From Oscillospiraceae bacterium (GTDB lineage: Bacteria > Bacillota > Clostridia > Oscillospirales > CAG-272): 32,313 nt of DNA. The translations under genes were made by a program, and so were the position numbers. A model generated the notes under the pieces. It did no database searches. It was not told the origin of the DNA and was given only the letters and a program-made list of their open reading frames with translations. The stretch is from positions 1-32,313 of the forward strand of contig SVTW01000024.1 of the NCBI GenBank assembly GCA_015063585.1, given 5' to 3'. This document shows positions 10,501-18,416 of the stretch, in pieces; position 1 is the first letter of the stretch, and each line of letters opens with the position of its first letter.

Positions 10501-12726
10501 TTACGAAAAACCGCGCAAAATATGCCCAACTCCGTTGAGATTGCGCAACCGTGAAACAATCGAATTGTAATGCTCAATGTTGCGGCATCCAACCTTAAGG
10601 CTGATGGTAGAGCGTCCGTCGCTATGATTCGCAACGCTCACCTGCAAAATTGACACGCGCATTTCAGCCAATGCGGTGGTAACGTCTGCCAGCATACCGA
10701 TACGGTCCTCTGCCATGATCTGCAAAAGCGCCTCGTAAATACCGCTACCTGCCCCCTGCGTTACCGAAGCTTCCCAATGCGCAGGCTTCCAGCGATCGGC
10801 GTTTTCAGGGTTCTTTTGCCCTTCCTTGACGTTGGGACAATCCAGCTTATGAATCGAAATACCAAAGCCCTTTGTAACAAAACCGATTACGGAATCTCCG
10901 GGAAGCGGGTTGCAGCACTTTGCGAACTTGACCATGCAGCCATGCTCACCGTCCACCACGATTCCGCTGTTGGACTTGATATTTTTCGGCTTGTTTACCA
11001 CGACCTGCTCAGGCTCGGTAATCACCTCCGGCTCAATGACCTCGGGCTTGAGAACACGCTCACACTCATCCTGCAACTTAGCAAGGATCTTAGAGATAGA
11101 GAGACCGCCGTAACCGATGGCATTATAGAAATCCTCTGCACCGGCATAGCCAACTCGCTCACTGATCGCGGTAACGATCGCATCGCGCTGTGCCTCGGTA
11201 CAGCTCTTGCGCATTTTGCGGATCTCAGCCTCAATTGCCGCCTTACCCATCACAATATTGTCGGCTTTCTTCTCACGCTTGAACCAAGCGCGGATCTTAG
11301 ATCGCGCCGCACTTGTTTTTACGATATTCAACCAGTCGCGGCTTGGTCCCTTGGAGGCGGAGGAGGTCATGATCTCCACGATCTCTCCGTTTTCAAGCTT
11401 GCGGTCGATCGGAACGATCATACCGTTTATCTTACCGCCAATCATTTTCTCACCAACCGCCGAGTGAATGGCATATGCGAAATCGATCACGTTCGCGCCG
11501 CTCGGCAACGCAATCACGTCTCCCTTCGGCGTGAAAACAAACACCTCGTCATGAAAAATATCGGTTTTCAGCGCATTCATAAACTCATCGGGGTCGCGTT
11601 GCTCGTTTTCGGTTTCGATCAGGCGTGAGATCCACTCCAGCTTGCGGTCCATTTCCTCCTTCGAGGAAGCGCCCGACTTATATTTCCAATGTGCCGCGAT
11701 ACCGTATTCGGCAACGTGATGCATTTCCCACGTGCGGATCTGCACCTCAAACGGAATACCGTCGCGACCGATTACAGTGGTATGCAGGGATCGGTACATG
11801 TTGGGCTTTGGCGTGGAAATATAGTCCTTGAAGCGTCCGGGGATCGAATTGAACATTTCATGGATCAATCCAAGTGCGGTATAGCACTCCAGCTCGGTTT
11901 CCACAATGATGCGGAGCGCGTAAAAGTCGTAGATCTGATCAAAAGACTTATTTTGATTATACATCTTTTTGTAGATCGAATAAACCGACTTAATTCTTCC
12001 CTCCAGCGTGAATTGAATATTGTTCTCGCGCATTTTCTGATCGACCGTTGCGCGAATATTCTCAATAAATCCAAGATTTTCGCCGTACTTCTCTTCAATA
12101 TGCTGACGAACCTCGGCATATCCGATGGGGTCGAGATAGCGCAGACCGAGATTTTCAAGCTCCTGTTTGATTCGCTGCATACCCAAACGGTGCGCAAGCG
12201 GCGCGTAAACCTGCATGGTTTCAAGCGCGGTAATACGGCGCTTATGGTCGGGCTTGACCTCAAGCGTGCGCATATTGTGGAGGCGGTCACAGAGCTTGAT
12301 AAAGATCACACGTACGTCCTTGGACATGGCAAGCAGCATCTTACGCAGGTTTTCAATATGTGCCTCTTCCTTATCCTCGACCTGAAGCGTTACAATCTTG
12401 GTCAATCCGTCAACTAAAAGAGCAACTTCGGGACCGAATTTCTTCTCGACCTCTTTCAGATCGGTCTTCTCCGAGCAATCCTCTACCGTATCGTGAAGCA
12501 ATGCGGCACAAATCGAATCAGTATCGAGTTCAAGTCCTGCCACAATCTCGGCAACCGCGATCGGATGCGAAATATAAGCCTCTCCGCTGACGCGAAATTG
12601 ACCCTCGTGCAGATCCCTCGCGTATTCAAACGCGCGCTGAATCTTATCTATATCATATTTTTTTCCGGTTGCCCGCAAAATGTCAAGCAATCGCGTTGTG
12701 TCGGTACTTATCTTAGTCTCATTCAT
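10501..12726 (-). CDS. rel: Bifunctional (p)ppGpp synthetase/hydrolase (RelA/SpoT, Rel)
   Basis: This long RSH enzyme makes and breaks the stringent-response alarmone (p)ppGpp. In order it has an HD hydrolase domain (H78-D79 in LLHDTVEDC), a synthetase domain (with FYALRIIV and the YRSLHTTV motif), a TGS domain (VFTPKGDVIALPSGANVIDFAYAIHS), a zinc-finger/CC region with GCMVKFAKCCNPLPGD, and a C-terminal ACT domain. I place the start at the ATG of 12726 because AAGGAG lies 5 nt upstream; the in-frame start at 12747 has no Shine-Dalgarno. The product is then 741 residues. Intact HD residues suggest that both activities are kept. Confidence 0.96.
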   Translation of the reverse strand: MNETKISTDTTRLLDILRATGKKYDIDKIQRAFEYARDLHEGQFRVSGEAYISHPIAVAEIVAGLELDTDSICAALLHDTVEDCSEKTDLKEVEKKFGPEVALLVDGLTKIVTLQVEDKEEAHIENLRKMLLAMSKDVRVIFIKLCDRLHNMRTLEVKPDHKRRITALETMQVYAPLAHRLGMQRIKQELENLGLRYLDPIGYAEVRQHIEEKYGENLGFIENIRATVDQKMRENNIQFTLEGRIKSVYSIYKKMYNQNKSFDQIYDFYALRIIVETELECYTALGLIHEMFNSIPGRFKDYISTPKPNMYRSLHTTVIGRDGIPFEVQIRTWEMHHVAEYGIAAHWKYKSGASSKEEMDRKLEWISRLIETENEQRDPDEFMNALKTDIFHDEVFVFTPKGDVIALPSGANVIDFAYAIHSAVGEKMIGGKINGMIVPIDRKLENGEIVEIMTSSASKGPSRDWLNIVKTSAARSKIRAWFKREKKADNIVMGKAAIEAEIRKMRKSCTEAQRDAIVTAISERVGYAGAEDFYNAIGYGGLSISKILAKLQDECERVLKPEVIEPEVITEPEQVVVNKPKNIKSNSGIVVDGEHGCMVKFAKCCNPLPGDSVIGFVTKGFGISIHKLDCPNVKEGQKNPENADRWKPAHWEASVTQGAGSGIYEALLQIMAEDRIGMLADVTTALAEMRVSILQVSVANHSDGRSTISLKVGCRNIEHYNSIVSRLRNLNGVGHILRGFS

Positions 12727-12764
12727 GGTTGCTCCTTCTACCGACATTGCTTGACGCAGTCGGT

Positions 12765-14963
12765 TTATCCCTCGGTTTTCCGTAGCTGTGACTTCAACCG
12801 TTTTAAGATCGATGACTTTTCAATGTTTGTTTTGGTTGTTTGATATTGGAATGAAAAAACGTAACGATCGGCGCTCGGCTCACTCACTTCGCATATCTGC
12901 AGCTCCTGCATGATGCGAATGATAAATTTCAGCTTGATGTATGAGATCTCACCGCACTCGGGAGAGGAGAACATGGTCAGCATCCGGCGCATCGGAAACA
13001 CACTGTGTCCCGCGCGGAATTCCCTTCTCAATGCGGTATAGACAATCGCAAAATCATTTCTTGTGGGCAAAATACGCTCGGATTCCAGATAGCTATCGCC
13101 TGCACAAATTTCCTCATACCGTGCCATATCACGGTCCAGCGCATCGGAAAAGCGCTTGGAAAGGTGAATATCCTGCACGATCATTTGCAGTGACATTACG
13201 TTTTGATATTCGTTGATACTCAACTGAAACAGAAGATCTACGGGATCGGTGGGTTCAAATTCAAATTGGCTGGTGGACATTCCAAACCAAAGCGCGATGA
13301 TTTCCCTGCCGTCCTTTTCCAGAATCAGCTTGGTATGCTTGCCCCCAACCAGGGGGATCACGCGCACGATCCTTGCCTCACGAAGAATAAAGTTCGGAAT
13401 CGGGTTGGATACGCCAAACGGCTCCATTGCGGTGATCTGCTGCGCAAGCTTCATATCCAGATCCTGCATCTCGACCTCGCAATCGGCATCCAGCGTGACT
13501 TCAAGCTCATTCTCCCCGAGATGCTCGCGCGCATACTGATTGATGCGGCGGCGGAAGGCATTGATATTGCACCGCGTGATGCTGAGCCCCGCGGCAAGCT
13601 CATGCCCGCCAAAACGAACCAGCAACTCCTCACTGTCGATCAATGCCTCAACCAAATTCATGCCCTTGATACTGCGCCCCGAGCCCTTTCCAACATCGTT
13701 TTCAAGCGGCTCGCCGTTGGCGGTTCCATCAAAAGAGATCAAAATGGACGGCAGTCCGTAATGCTCGGTAATGCGTGAGGACACAATTCCGATAATGCCC
13801 TGCTGCCACGTATCATCATCGATTACGATCACGCGATCCTCTACCGGATCAAAGGTTTCTTCGATCTTACGGTATGCCTGCTCGGCAATTCGGTTTTCTT
13901 CCACCTGGCGCTTCAAATTCAAGTCGCAGAGTGTTTCCGCAAGCCGATCGGCATCTGCCGCGGTTTCGGCAAGGAGAAGCTCTACCGCAATTGACGCACT
14001 GCTCACACGCCCTGCGGCATTGAGCCGAGGGGCAATGGTAAATCCGACAAAGCCGGAGTTGATCTTTCTTTTACGAGTCGGACGGGATCCGTCGCCGCGC
14101 GATCCCGACGCCGCTTCAATCAGCGCGCGAAGTCCGGGGCGATTTGTATTCTCAAGCAATTGCAGTCCAAGCGTTACGATCAAGCGGTTTTCGTCGATCA
14201 CAGGCATTACGTCGGCAATGGTTCCGATCGCAACAAGATCGGCATAGGAACGGCAAAGCCGCTCCACCCCATCGCGTACCGAAACGCCCTCTCGGCGGCA
14301 TCGCTCCATTTCAACAGCGCAGATCACCTTAAAAATGACACCTACGCCCGCAAGATCCTTAAACGGATAAGGGTCGCCTTCTCTGTGGGGGTTCACCACG
14401 GCACAGGCATTCGGCAGGATCTCACGACACTCGTGGTGGTCGGTGACAACCGTATCGATTCCGCACTCTTTGGCATACTCGATCTCATCAATCGCAGTTA
14501 CGCCTGTATCAACCGTGATCATCAGCTTCACGCCGCGTTCGGCAAGACGGTCAATTGCGGGATTGGAAAGACCGTAGCCCTCCAGCATACGGCTTGGAAT
14601 GTAATACCCAACGTCTGCTCCGCGCTCGGAAAGATAGAGATACAACAGGCTGACCGACGTGACACCGTCCACGTCATAGTCTCCGTAGATCGCGATTCGT
14701 TCCCCCGCTTCAATTGCCTGCTCAATGCGCGCAACGGCAGACGCGATATCCAACAAGGACGTGGGATCATGCAAGCAAGCCGCATCCTGCTCCAAAAAGG
14801 ATTTTACCGCTTTGGAATCGGTATATCCTCTTGTATAGAGCACCCGCGAAAGGATCTCGGAACATCCGATCTCCTGCGCCAAGGCTCGTATGGCGGCATC
14901 CTGCACGGGATTTCCCCGCGCACCGCGCACGCTCCATCTTTTTGTTTTTTTCGTTTGATTCAT
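12765..14963 (-). CDS. recJ: Single-stranded-DNA-specific exonuclease RecJ
   Basis: RecJ is a 5'-3' ssDNA exonuclease in recombination and base-excision repair. DHH-family motifs are intact: GDYDVDG (94-100), DTG (152-154) and the DHH triad (175-177), followed by the DHHA1 domain ending in GGHELAAG. The C-terminal 170 or so residues carry an OB-like and winged-helix-like extension, as seen in Firmicutes RecJ. The total length of 732 is within the family range. AGGAG lies just before the ATG. recJ-rel-dtd is a conserved Firmicutes arrangement. Confidence 0.95.
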   Translation of the reverse strand: MNQTKKTKRWSVRGARGNPVQDAAIRALAQEIGCSEILSRVLYTRGYTDSKAVKSFLEQDAACLHDPTSLLDIASAVARIEQAIEAGERIAIYGDYDVDGVTSVSLLYLYLSERGADVGYYIPSRMLEGYGLSNPAIDRLAERGVKLMITVDTGVTAIDEIEYAKECGIDTVVTDHHECREILPNACAVVNPHREGDPYPFKDLAGVGVIFKVICAVEMERCRREGVSVRDGVERLCRSYADLVAIGTIADVMPVIDENRLIVTLGLQLLENTNRPGLRALIEAASGSRGDGSRPTRKRKINSGFVGFTIAPRLNAAGRVSSASIAVELLLAETAADADRLAETLCDLNLKRQVEENRIAEQAYRKIEETFDPVEDRVIVIDDDTWQQGIIGIVSSRITEHYGLPSILISFDGTANGEPLENDVGKGSGRSIKGMNLVEALIDSEELLVRFGGHELAAGLSITRCNINAFRRRINQYAREHLGENELEVTLDADCEVEMQDLDMKLAQQITAMEPFGVSNPIPNFILREARIVRVIPLVGGKHTKLILEKDGREIIALWFGMSTSQFEFEPTDPVDLLFQLSINEYQNVMSLQMIVQDIHLSKRFSDALDRDMARYEEICAGDSYLESERILPTRNDFAIVYTALRREFRAGHSVFPMRRMLTMFSSPECGEISYIKLKFIIRIMQELQICEVSEPSADRYVFSFQYQTTKTNIEKSSILKRLKSQLRKTEG

Positions 14964-15023
14964 TTTTTCTCCTCATTCTGCGCCTTTCGAGCTTCGCGCA
15001 GCACATTTTACAACCGTGAAATT

Positions 15024-15461
15024 TTACGGTCCTTTTCTGATCACTTCAACAATTACAATATCGCAGCGTTTTTTTCGTATATATTCGGAATATGCAAAGA
15101 GGCCGCCAAAGGTTCCGCAAAGGCCGAAAAAGCCGGCACCGATCCGCCATCCGTTTGCGGCACCGAGCAATGCCGCCAAGCCGTAAAACAGCAAGGCAGA
15201 CAGCATGGGCAACAGAAAGACCAGCGCAGCATACCAAAGCATGCGTCCCGTTGCGCTTTCAATGATAACAGTGTCTCCAACCTCTGCCCCAACGAAATTT
15301 TCCGCCTCCGCGCGCATTTTACGGTCACCGCCCATTAAAGAGCAGACCGAGCAAGCGTTTTCGCCCTCGGATTTATGACAGCCCTCACACGCAGAGGTAC
15401 GCTCCGCTTCAACGGTTGCCCGCCTTCCACAGATCGCCACTACAGTAGCCTTGGTTCGCAT
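15024..15461 (-). CDS. RseC/MucC-like (SoxR-reducing system) membrane protein
   Basis: A 145-residue protein of the RseC/RsxC-associated family. The N-terminal soluble half has four cysteines in two pairs (C25, C28, C37, C40), which could bind an Fe-S cluster or zinc. Two transmembrane helices follow at about 72-97 and 103-122. In proteobacteria RseC is linked to SoxR reduction; in Clostridia it often accompanies Rnf genes, which are not seen here. It begins 3 bp after the end of the FAD oxidoreductase gene. Its function in this organism is unproven. Confidence 0.85.
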   Translation of the reverse strand: MRTKATVVAICGRRATVEAERTSACEGCHKSEGENACSVCSLMGGDRKMRAEAENFVGAEVGDTVIIESATGRMLWYAALVFLLPMLSALLFYGLAALLGAANGWRIGAGFFGLCGTFGGLFAYSEYIRKKRCDIVIVEVIRKGP

Positions 15462-15464
15462 GGT

Positions 15465-17123
15465 TTAAATTCCTTTCTGTTCGGATTTCGGAGGTGCAAA
15501 GCGAGCCATCAATGCGGACGCGACACGTACACCGTCAACCGCGGCACTTGTGATCCCCCCCGCATATCCTGCACCTTCTCCGCACGGATAGATCCGCGAA
15601 TGCCCGATGGCATACAGTTGTTCCCCGTCGCGCAGGATCCGAAGCGGTGCCGAGGTTCGGGTTTCAGCCGCTGTCAGAACGGTATCGGGAGCATCGTAGC
15701 CCTCCAGCTTTTTTCCAAAGGACGTCAACGCATATCGCAAAGCGCGAATCAAGAAATCGGGATAAATATTTTCAAAATTTGAAACACGAACCTTACCGCC
15801 CCGATAACTCGGCAGAACACGCCCGGGCTCCCTTCCATAACTGCCATTGAGAAAATCGCCCGCTGTCATGATCGGCGCATAATAATCGCCGCCGCCTGTG
15901 CGGAATGCCGCGCGTTCGATCAAGCGTTGAAATTCTATGGCTCCCAAAACGATACTTCCGTTCACAGCTTCCATATCGGCAGGTTCAACCGATGCCAGCA
16001 CCGCCGCGTTTGCGTTCTTTCCGTCACGCGCGTGATTGCTCATGCCGTTGACAACCAGTCCGCCCGACTCCGATGCCGCGGCAACCACCTCACCGCCCGG
16101 GCACATGCAAAAGGTATATACCCCGCGTTCTCCGCGTGTATCGGAGAGCGCGTATTCGGCATGACCGAGATTGGGATGTCCCGCAAAGCGCCCGTAAAGC
16201 GCGGCGTCGATTTTTTCCTGTAAATGCTCGGCGCGAAAGCCGATCGAGATTGGTTTTGGCTCCAGAACAAAATTCTTTTCAAGCAAGCACAGATAGGTAT
16301 CGCGCGAGCTGTGTCCCGGGGCAAGAATCAATGCGCCGCAACAAAAGCTCCCTTGATTGGTTTTGATCTGCAGGGTGCCGTCCGCTTGCTCGGAAAAGTC
16401 CTCCATCTTGCAACGGTAATGCAACGTGCCGCCCAAGCGCTCAATCTCCGCGAGCATTGCTTCGACAACACCGCGCAAAAGATCGGTTCCTACGTGTGGC
16501 TTTGCGTGATACAGGACCTCCTCCGGTGCACCGAATGCATGAAGTGTTTGCATAACGAATGCCGTTCGCGGGTCATGAATGCGCGTAACCAGCTTTCCGT
16601 CCGAAAAGGTTCCCGCACCGCCTGCGCCAAATTGAATGTTGCTTTCCGGATCCAGTACCCCCTCTGTGCGGAACTGCTCGACGTTGCGTACCCGTTCACG
16701 AACCGATGCACCACGGTCGATCAAAATCGGTGCATAGCCCTCTCTTGCGAGAAGCAATGCCGCAAAAAGCCCCGCGGGACCCATTCCAACCACAAGCGGA
16801 CGTGCAGAAAGATGGTCCGTACCGTGTTGGAACGATAACGTCTCATTTTCGTAGAGTCTTGCATCGGCACGTGCCAAAAGATGCGCGGGATAGGCACGCC
16901 GATCGGTCACGCCCTCCGCCAAAACCGTACACTCAAAGCGCAGATCATTGCGTCGGCGCGCGTCGACCGATTTTTTAAAAAGGCGAAAATGAAGCGACGA
17001 GGTCGTAAGCCCCGCTCGCTTCATTTTTTCTCGCGCCTTTTTCAGAATATCTTCATTGGTAGCATCGATCGGAACGCGAATCGAACCGATCAACACACCA
17101 AGTGTTCTTGCATCAGAGCTCAT
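15465..17123 (-). CDS. FAD-dependent oxidoreductase of the COG2509-type dehydrogenase family
   Basis: A flavoprotein of about 552 residues. An N-terminal domain of some 100 residues precedes a Rossmann FAD-binding motif GMGPAG (113-118), with QFGAGGAGTFSDGK further on and a C-terminal FAD motif GEGAGYAGGI. This fits the uncharacterised NAD(FAD)-utilizing dehydrogenases common in Clostridia; the substrate is unknown. I choose the ATG at 17123, which overlaps the preceding stop by 4 bp (ATGA), over an in-frame TTG at 17135. Neither has a good Shine-Dalgarno, so translation is probably coupled to the CdaR-like microprotein. Confidence 0.87.
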   Translation of the reverse strand: MSSDARTLGVLIGSIRVPIDATNEDILKKAREKMKRAGLTTSSLHFRLFKKSVDARRRNDLRFECTVLAEGVTDRRAYPAHLLARADARLYENETLSFQHGTDHLSARPLVVGMGPAGLFAALLLAREGYAPILIDRGASVRERVRNVEQFRTEGVLDPESNIQFGAGGAGTFSDGKLVTRIHDPRTAFVMQTLHAFGAPEEVLYHAKPHVGTDLLRGVVEAMLAEIERLGGTLHYRCKMEDFSEQADGTLQIKTNQGSFCCGALILAPGHSSRDTYLCLLEKNFVLEPKPISIGFRAEHLQEKIDAALYGRFAGHPNLGHAEYALSDTRGERGVYTFCMCPGGEVVAAASESGGLVVNGMSNHARDGKNANAAVLASVEPADMEAVNGSIVLGAIEFQRLIERAAFRTGGGDYYAPIMTAGDFLNGSYGREPGRVLPSYRGGKVRVSNFENIYPDFLIRALRYALTSFGKKLEGYDAPDTVLTAAETRTSAPLRILRDGEQLYAIGHSRIYPCGEGAGYAGGITSAAVDGVRVASALMARFAPPKSEQKGI

Positions 17124-17320
17124 TCTATCAACCAAAGCGCGTCATCTTCCCCTTCACCGTCAGAGGGGAAATGGTCATGTTTTTCGAAATTTACAACAAC
17201 CAGCCAAATCAAAAGCGCCAAAAGCAGACAAAGAAGCTTGGGGAAAAGATGCCAACGGCGCACTCTTGCGGTCACGGGCTCTTTTGCCGCAACCATGTGT
17301 CCCACTACGTTTTTCTTCAT
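17120..17320 (-). CDS. CdaR/YbbR-like microprotein reduced to its membrane anchor
   Basis: A 66-residue protein directly after cdaA, where cdaR (ybbR), the regulator of the diadenylate cyclase, is normally found. Residues 22-44 (WHLFPKLLCLLLALLIWLVV then VNF) match the N-terminal anchor of CdaR proteins, which is typically a K-x2-SLx2A-x2-LW-x-VV-type helix. All YbbR repeat domains are absent; after the helix there are only about 22 mostly acidic residues. A strong AAGGAGG lies 8 nt before the ATG, and the stop is fused to the next start, so it is probably translated rather than a decayed relic. The CdaR relationship is inferred from position and anchor pattern. Confidence 0.65.
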   Translation of the reverse strand: MKKNVVGHMVAAKEPVTARVRRWHLFPKLLCLLLALLIWLVVVNFEKHDHFPSDGEGEDDALWLIE

Positions 17321-17333
17321 GGAATACCCCTCC

Positions 17334-18416
17334 TTATCCGTTTTGTTCTTCGTCGGTTGTGGATTCCGATCCGTCCGCCCGCGGGGCTTGGATCACCTCC
17401 ACACTGTCAATGGAGCTGTCAGTCTCCTCGGTTGGCTCATCCTGACCGATCAGCTTTTGAAATTCCTTCTCAACAATTTCCTCTCGGCTGCTCTTTCGAG
17501 GCTCGGCAGGCGTTTTTACTCTTGCAACGTTTTCAAGCATTTCCAAATATTCCTTACGCATATTGGCACGCTTGAGACGCAAATACGCGTTTCCTGCAAT
17601 ATAGGTCATCAAAATATCGCGGAGCGTTTTCCCATCAACGTCGCGCAACAGCTTTCCGTCCTGCGCAACCGAAACGATCCCCGTCTGCTCGGATACCACG
17701 ATCACAAGCGCATCACTCACCTCGGTAATGCCAACAGCCGCGCGGTGACGGGTTCCCATCGTTCCGAAATTCATCTTGCTTTTGGTGGAAGGAAGCACAC
17801 AGCTTGCCGCCCAAATACGCATATCACGAATGATCAAAGCACCGTCATGAAGCGGAGCTCCGTTATAAAAAAGATTCTGCAAAAGCTTGGAGCTGACACG
17901 CGCATCCACGATTTTTCCCGTTTCCACGTACTCGCCCAGCTTTGTTAATCCTTCAAACACAATCAACGCACCGGTGCGGGATCCCGCCATTTTTTCAACT
18001 GCATCGGCGGTCTCGTCGGCAACCGCGCGCGCTTGATCCATACGCTTTTTCGGAATGGTATTGCTTCTCGGATTAAACAGAGTCAAATTTCCGATTTGCT
18101 CCAGCAGATCGCGGATCTCTGGTTGGAAGATAACAACAATGCTGAAAAACGCGGCAGCGGAAAAGAGCCGTACGATAAAATTAAGAGTGGGAAGCTTCAG
18201 CGACGTAATAATGGTGCTGACGATCACAACGGCAACAAGACCGAACACAACGCGGCCTGCGCGACGGTTTCGGGTAAAGCGGTAGAGCTGATAAAGAATG
18301 ACTGCAAGAAGCAAAATGTCCACCGCATCCCAAATTCCGATATTCAGGATCGGCGTGATAACATATTGGGTTGCAAAATGAGAAATCTCACTCCAAATTT
18401 TCGTCAAAAAATCCAT
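17334..18416 (-). CDS. cdaA: Membrane diadenylate cyclase CdaA (DacA)
   Basis: CdaA makes cyclic di-AMP from two ATP. Three N-terminal transmembrane helices lie at about 31-46, 56-72 and 80-97. The DAC domain carries both catalytic signatures: DGA (191-193, in PLHDGALIIRD) and GTRHRAA (221-227). A hydrophilic acidic C-terminal extension of about 70 residues follows, with little recognisable structure. GGAGG lies 8 nt before the ATG. cdaA leads the unit that continues with the CdaR-like microprotein; no glmM is seen downstream, unlike the usual cdaA-cdaR-glmM order. Confidence 0.95.
   Translation of the reverse strand: MDFLTKIWSEISHFATQYVITPILNIGIWDAVDILLLAVILYQLYRFTRNRRAGRVVFGLVAVVIVSTIITSLKLPTLNFIVRLFSAAAFFSIVVIFQPEIRDLLEQIGNLTLFNPRSNTIPKKRMDQARAVADETADAVEKMAGSRTGALIVFEGLTKLGEYVETGKIVDARVSSKLLQNLFYNGAPLHDGALIIRDMRIWAASCVLPSTKSKMNFGTMGTRHRAAVGITEVSDALVIVVSEQTGIVSVAQDGKLLRDVDGKTLRDILMTYIAGNAYLRLKRANMRKEYLEMLENVARVKTPAEPRKSSREEIVEKEFQKLIGQDEPTEETDSSIDSVEVIQAPRADGSESTTDEEQNG

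Follow-up and report, generated by a model that had tools for sequence, protein, structure and literature searches.

Our analysis points to an unusual, minimal partner of the c-di-AMP cyclase CdaA. The small open reading frame directly downstream of cdaA probably encodes a true CdaR orthologue, which has lost every YbbR domain and persists as a CdaA subunit with a single membrane helix; we infer its binding to the cyclase, and an effect on cyclase activity, from published contacts between the helices of the two proteins. The stretch of DNA analysed here (the window, 32,313 nucleotides) belongs to a family of uncultured gut bacteria; most of its named close relatives are Clostridia MAGs from the ruminant gut. 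As PF07949 (YbbR) is found neither in the protein nor in its genome or genus, the product is by strict domain definition not a YbbR-domain protein, but a reduced CdaR orthologue. Anchor-only CdaR is a reduced version of a known regulator and not a novel type of system; no earlier description of it turned up in a literature search, with subscription papers largely beyond its reach.

The short gene and its conservation

The anchor-only cdaR (66 codons; 17120–17320, minus strand) starts 13 nt downstream of the cdaA stop codon on the same strand and occupies the same place across the genus. With 32 same-position ORFs in the genus, the window's included, it is far beyond what chance would produce. 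The original prediction had described a 66-residue protein with an anchor-like helix and an acidic tail directly after cdaA, served by a strong Shine–Dalgarno sequence and overlapping the next gene by ATGA, and all of these elements are indeed present: the Shine–Dalgarno sequence GGAGGGG lies at 17327–17333 (minus strand), with its core found upstream of the gene in 29 of the 32 genus members, and the ATGA stop/start overlap with the gene of an FAD-dependent oxidoreductase lies at 17120–17123 (minus strand), with the same type of overlap in 25 of the 32.

By alignment and charge, the protein can be divided into three parts. Residues 1–14 (17279–17320, minus strand) form a conserved motif predicted to be cytoplasmic, MKKNxxGHMxAxKE, within an N-terminal part of net positive charge. 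Residues 25–45 (17186–17248, minus strand) form the transmembrane helix LFPKLLCLLLALLIWLVVVNF, delimited by invariant columns and by alignment to the CdaR anchor; the AlphaFold2 model of the protein places its main helix at residues 25–49 and is of low confidence elsewhere. Residues 46–66 (17123–17185, minus strand) make up a variable acidic tail, which is predicted to lie outside and stands where the YbbR domains of other genera are found. A cytoplasmic N-terminus, one predicted helix and an exported C-terminus fit the charge bias of all 32 short CdaR proteins, each of which has a more positive N-terminus than tail (means +5.5 versus −3.0).

The anchor is under purifying selection across the genus. 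Measured in the closest pairs, where synonymous change is not saturated, its dN/dS is 0.05–0.25, while the short acidic tail changes freely in the same pairs. In the genus alignment C31 and W39 are invariant, with K3, N4, K13, L32, A35 and L40 nearly so. Together with the occurrence of the same form wherever the locus of a genus member was readable, these values bear out the earlier suggestion that the short form is maintained. They also speak against a functionless cdaR leftover heading for complete loss, a reading that could appeal to two relatives with no cdaR between cdaA and the FAD gene and to forms as short as 35–36 aa, but which is unlikely given the low dN/dS of the anchor, its persistence over the large divergence seen in the tree, the invariant cysteine and tryptophan and the retained start codon and Shine–Dalgarno sequence. 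Even less probable is a role mainly in translation, as a leader or coupling ORF that brings ribosomes to the FAD gene via the ATGA overlap: common as this overlap is, it is missing in 7 of the 32 genus members, and amino-acid conservation resides in the helix and the N-terminus and not at the 3′ end beside the FAD gene.

Kinship with CdaR

That the helix is a genuine CdaR anchor, as its appearance had suggested, emerged from several kinds of comparison. An anchor HMM was built from the anchors of 34 CdaR proteins of other genera, each of greater length than one-domain CdaR, and run against the 3,263 ORFs of the genus loci. The window ORF (E = 1.3e-7) and its 31 genus orthologues took ranks 1–32; the best unrelated ORF reached only E = 1.8, and CdaA's own helices also ranked below the 32 short ORFs. 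A profile–profile alignment of 31 short proteins with 21 full-length CdaR proteins covered 39 columns (E = 2e-9). A full-length CdaR profile searched against 35 genus genomes gave matches in 18 of them, all of which were short ORFs and all of which fell at anchor positions. Even single-sequence BLAST from the short protein reaches the N-terminus of full-length CdaR encoded beside cdaA in other genera (E = 9.7e-6 in G042).

There is very little room, then, for a different small membrane protein that took cdaR's spot and resembles it merely as hydrophobic helices resemble one another. The 66-aa protein does have no Pfam match, and weak CrgA-like matches (E = 0.13 with NCBIfam for the window ORF, E = 0.044 with Pfam for L117) illustrate that single helices can cross-match; yet the short ORFs rank specifically above 3,231 other ORFs, other membrane helices included, the full CdaR profile finds genome-wide nothing but these ORFs at anchor positions, and proteins of intermediate length occur at the same locus. 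An identity as the cell division protein CrgA itself was rejected (12.5 bits against an NCBIfam cut-off of 109).

The anchor is not unchanged, since it has lost a tyrosine two residues after the anchor tryptophan (WxY). By alignment this tyrosine is present in 33 of the 34 longer CdaR proteins (an automatic pattern counted 30, with three missed through a misplaced helix), in none of the 32 genus members and in 3 of 12 other reduced forms, i.e. lost in 9 of them. This distribution, whose statistical weight is lessened by shared ancestry, suggests that the tyrosine serves the ectodomain, while the remaining helix serves something that has been kept, most simply CdaA.

Graded forms and repeated loss of YbbR

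Across related genera, one and the same locus displays a graded series from full-length CdaR via shorter forms to the anchor only (35–98 aa) and, in two cases, to no CdaR at all; lengths along this series include 320–344, 249–267, 130–174 and 68–84 aa. The 165-aa form of G060 is predicted to consist of one membrane helix and one YbbR domain, the predicted fold of which matches the YbbR domain of Listeria CdaR (PDB 5hqh; E = 9.9e-5, TM 0.74 over the target). The short form is found at every readable locus of the window's genus, and likewise in 5 of 5 species with a readable locus in a second genus (G064). Further minimal forms come from named MAGs, the smallest having 36 aa (L161) and 35 aa (L162), and the proteins at the CdaR position in these two loci consist of a KK...G motif and one helix. 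In G056 (L110) and L166 no ORF lies between cdaA and the FAD gene, which starts at the cdaA stop or a few bases past it; both sit in or beside a clade in which anchors have shrunk to about 35–58 aa. With cdaR gone, the anchor must be dispensable at least there.

The spacing of the flanking genes follows the same pattern. In most of the genus, cdaA and the FAD gene are separated by about 200 nt (stop to start), compared with about 1,000–1,470 nt in long-CdaR genera, except for two with about 720–800 nt. As the gap between the cdaA stop and the next gene is no larger than about 200–400 nt in genus members with a readable locus, a lost ectodomain would not fit into it. Full-length cdaR in relatives combined with a frameshift in the window would have pointed to an artefact, and all readable genus loci turned out to be short. 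Thus, although the MAG that contains the window is only 86.5% complete, a frameshift or assembly error is ruled out for practical purposes by the genus-wide short form and the missing space.

It had also been proposed that the YbbR domains might have moved elsewhere in the genome. For the genus this is excluded within the limits of incomplete MAGs: among 35 genus genomes, some of them incomplete and the window's among them, none contained PF07949 or a second, full-length copy of CdaR detectable with the full-length profile. Most other genera of the family do possess PF07949, as do the other families of the order wherever our sample yielded a cyclase. Bacilli relatives retrieved by the cdaA search (L169–L202) do not have the trait, as all carry an ORF of about 450 codons that matches the full-length profile.

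Mapped onto a tree of CdaA and the FAD protein, YbbR absence requires about seven changes, at least five of which are forced by well-supported branches; on an earlier tree, from which the named MAGs were absent, the anchor-only state required six changes, at least four of them forced. These are quick two-gene trees, and change counts leave the direction unfixed; loss is the natural reading because YbbR is present in every sampled member of the outgroup families and in the family's early branches. Two assignments carry qualifications: G041 was scored as anchor-only though its 73-aa protein has no tryptophan signature, and G054, which has no FAD gene, was placed by CdaA alone. Across the roughly seven losses of YbbR, the anchor was nearly always kept.

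The cyclase locus, a possible role and known relatives

CdaA itself (360 aa; 17334–18416, minus strand), identified by profile matches and consisting of an N-terminal membrane domain and an acidic C-terminal extension, is intact in the window: it scores above the TIGR00159 cut-off, matches PF02457 and PF19293 and keeps the DGA and RHR motifs. The extension is long, acidic and of low complexity throughout the genus (17334–17500, minus strand, in the window; loci L059–L090), with a median of about 100 residues after the SE(E/Q)TG motif versus 54 in full-length-CdaR genera, where the tails are mildly basic. It might make up for the loss of the ectodomain from CdaR.

Downstream of cdaR, a same-strand run (10501–18416, minus strand, counted from cdaA) continues with the genes of the FAD-dependent oxidoreductase (15465–17123), which comes next after cdaR in most of the family and served as a syntenic marker, an RseC/MucC-family membrane protein (15024–15461), a recJ-type exonuclease (12765–14963) and a relA/spoT-type (p)ppGpp synthetase/hydrolase (10501–12747), all on the minus strand. 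Most of the family shares the cdaR–FAD portion; the remainder was observed in the window and, without the FAD and RseC genes, in L108 (G054), where cdaR consequently adjoins recJ directly, followed by relA. The run may constitute one operon for c-di-AMP and (p)ppGpp synthesis. In one MAG, G015, cdaA occurs twice (L071, L072) and a third contig has an additional match to short cdaR (G015:C55:4060–4236), which may reflect a strain mixture (3% contamination).

The original prediction had further noted that glmM is missing here. It is absent from the cdaA locus, but this has no special meaning, since the order cdaA–cdaR–FAD without glmM also occurs in family members with full-length CdaR and glmM is encoded on another contig of the window's genome (G000:C49:16970–18307, E = 1.9e-157). 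GdpP and, as KtrA-like targets, RCK_C-domain proteins of the KtrA/TrkA type are retained as well. With these and glmM present, decay of the c-di-AMP pathway is not supported as an explanation.

The CdaR ectodomain is usually suggested to have a role in sensing the outside. What an anchor-only CdaR retains is the part with known cyclase contacts; what it drops is the part thought to sense the outside. In such a protein, the positively charged N-terminus would stay in the cytoplasm, with one helix spanning the membrane and a short acidic tail ending outside. The helix would most likely pack against the N-terminal membrane helices of CdaA and could thereby stabilize the cyclase or set its basal activity or assembly, without the sensing role of the ectodomain; regulation might then come from inside, for example via GlmM. 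By analogy with other species, where the membrane-spanning parts of CdaR and CdaA touch (PMC10243994, PMC8573169), short CdaR may bind and tune CdaA. In Staphylococcus aureus, a suppressor of a ybbR deletion alters the third helix of DacA (PMC5207132) and a ybbR insertion raises c-di-AMP (PMC11520302); one study in this species, which counts against the regulator model, found no conclusive regulatory effect of YbbR on DacA (PMC6368335). Published reports conflict on whether CdaR activates or represses CdaA, and how it controls the cyclase is stated to be unknown (PMC10243994, PMC8573169).

It is a serious, albeit tentative, possibility that a lone helix plus a short cytoplasmic motif represents a sufficient and selected CdaA regulator, with the YbbR ectodomain being a dispensable sensor that one family discarded some seven times while retaining the synthesis, breakdown and targets of c-di-AMP; control of the cyclase would then have moved from outside to inside. 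A natural, ectodomain-less CdaR under selection separates the helix from the sensor and makes the question of whether the helix is enough directly testable. Minimal partners of 35–98 aa, intermediate forms with a reduced number of YbbR domains and two relatives naturally devoid of CdaR provide a ready set for such studies. The conserved cysteine and tryptophan of the helix are candidate CdaA contacts, and the WxY tyrosine that is missing here may be what links the anchor to the ectodomain in longer CdaR.

Like CdaR/YbbR of Firmicutes, the regulator of CdaA/DacA, the short protein is encoded directly after cdaA and has a homologous N-terminal one-helix anchor with inside-to-outside topology signals; unlike it, the short protein has neither any YbbR domain nor the WxY tyrosine of longer CdaR. 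In lactic acid bacteria, for comparison, CdaR exposes three or four YbbR domains outside (PMC10243994). The one-YbbR CdaR proteins of related genera (G060, G055, G038 and others) share locus and anchor with the short form and represent an intermediate step of reduction, but keep one ectodomain, which in G060 is predicted to fold like 5hqh. In the CdaA–CdaR fusions of some streptococci (PMC10243994), a CdaR helix likewise lies beside the CdaA helices, whereas there the ectodomain is retained and the two genes are fused.
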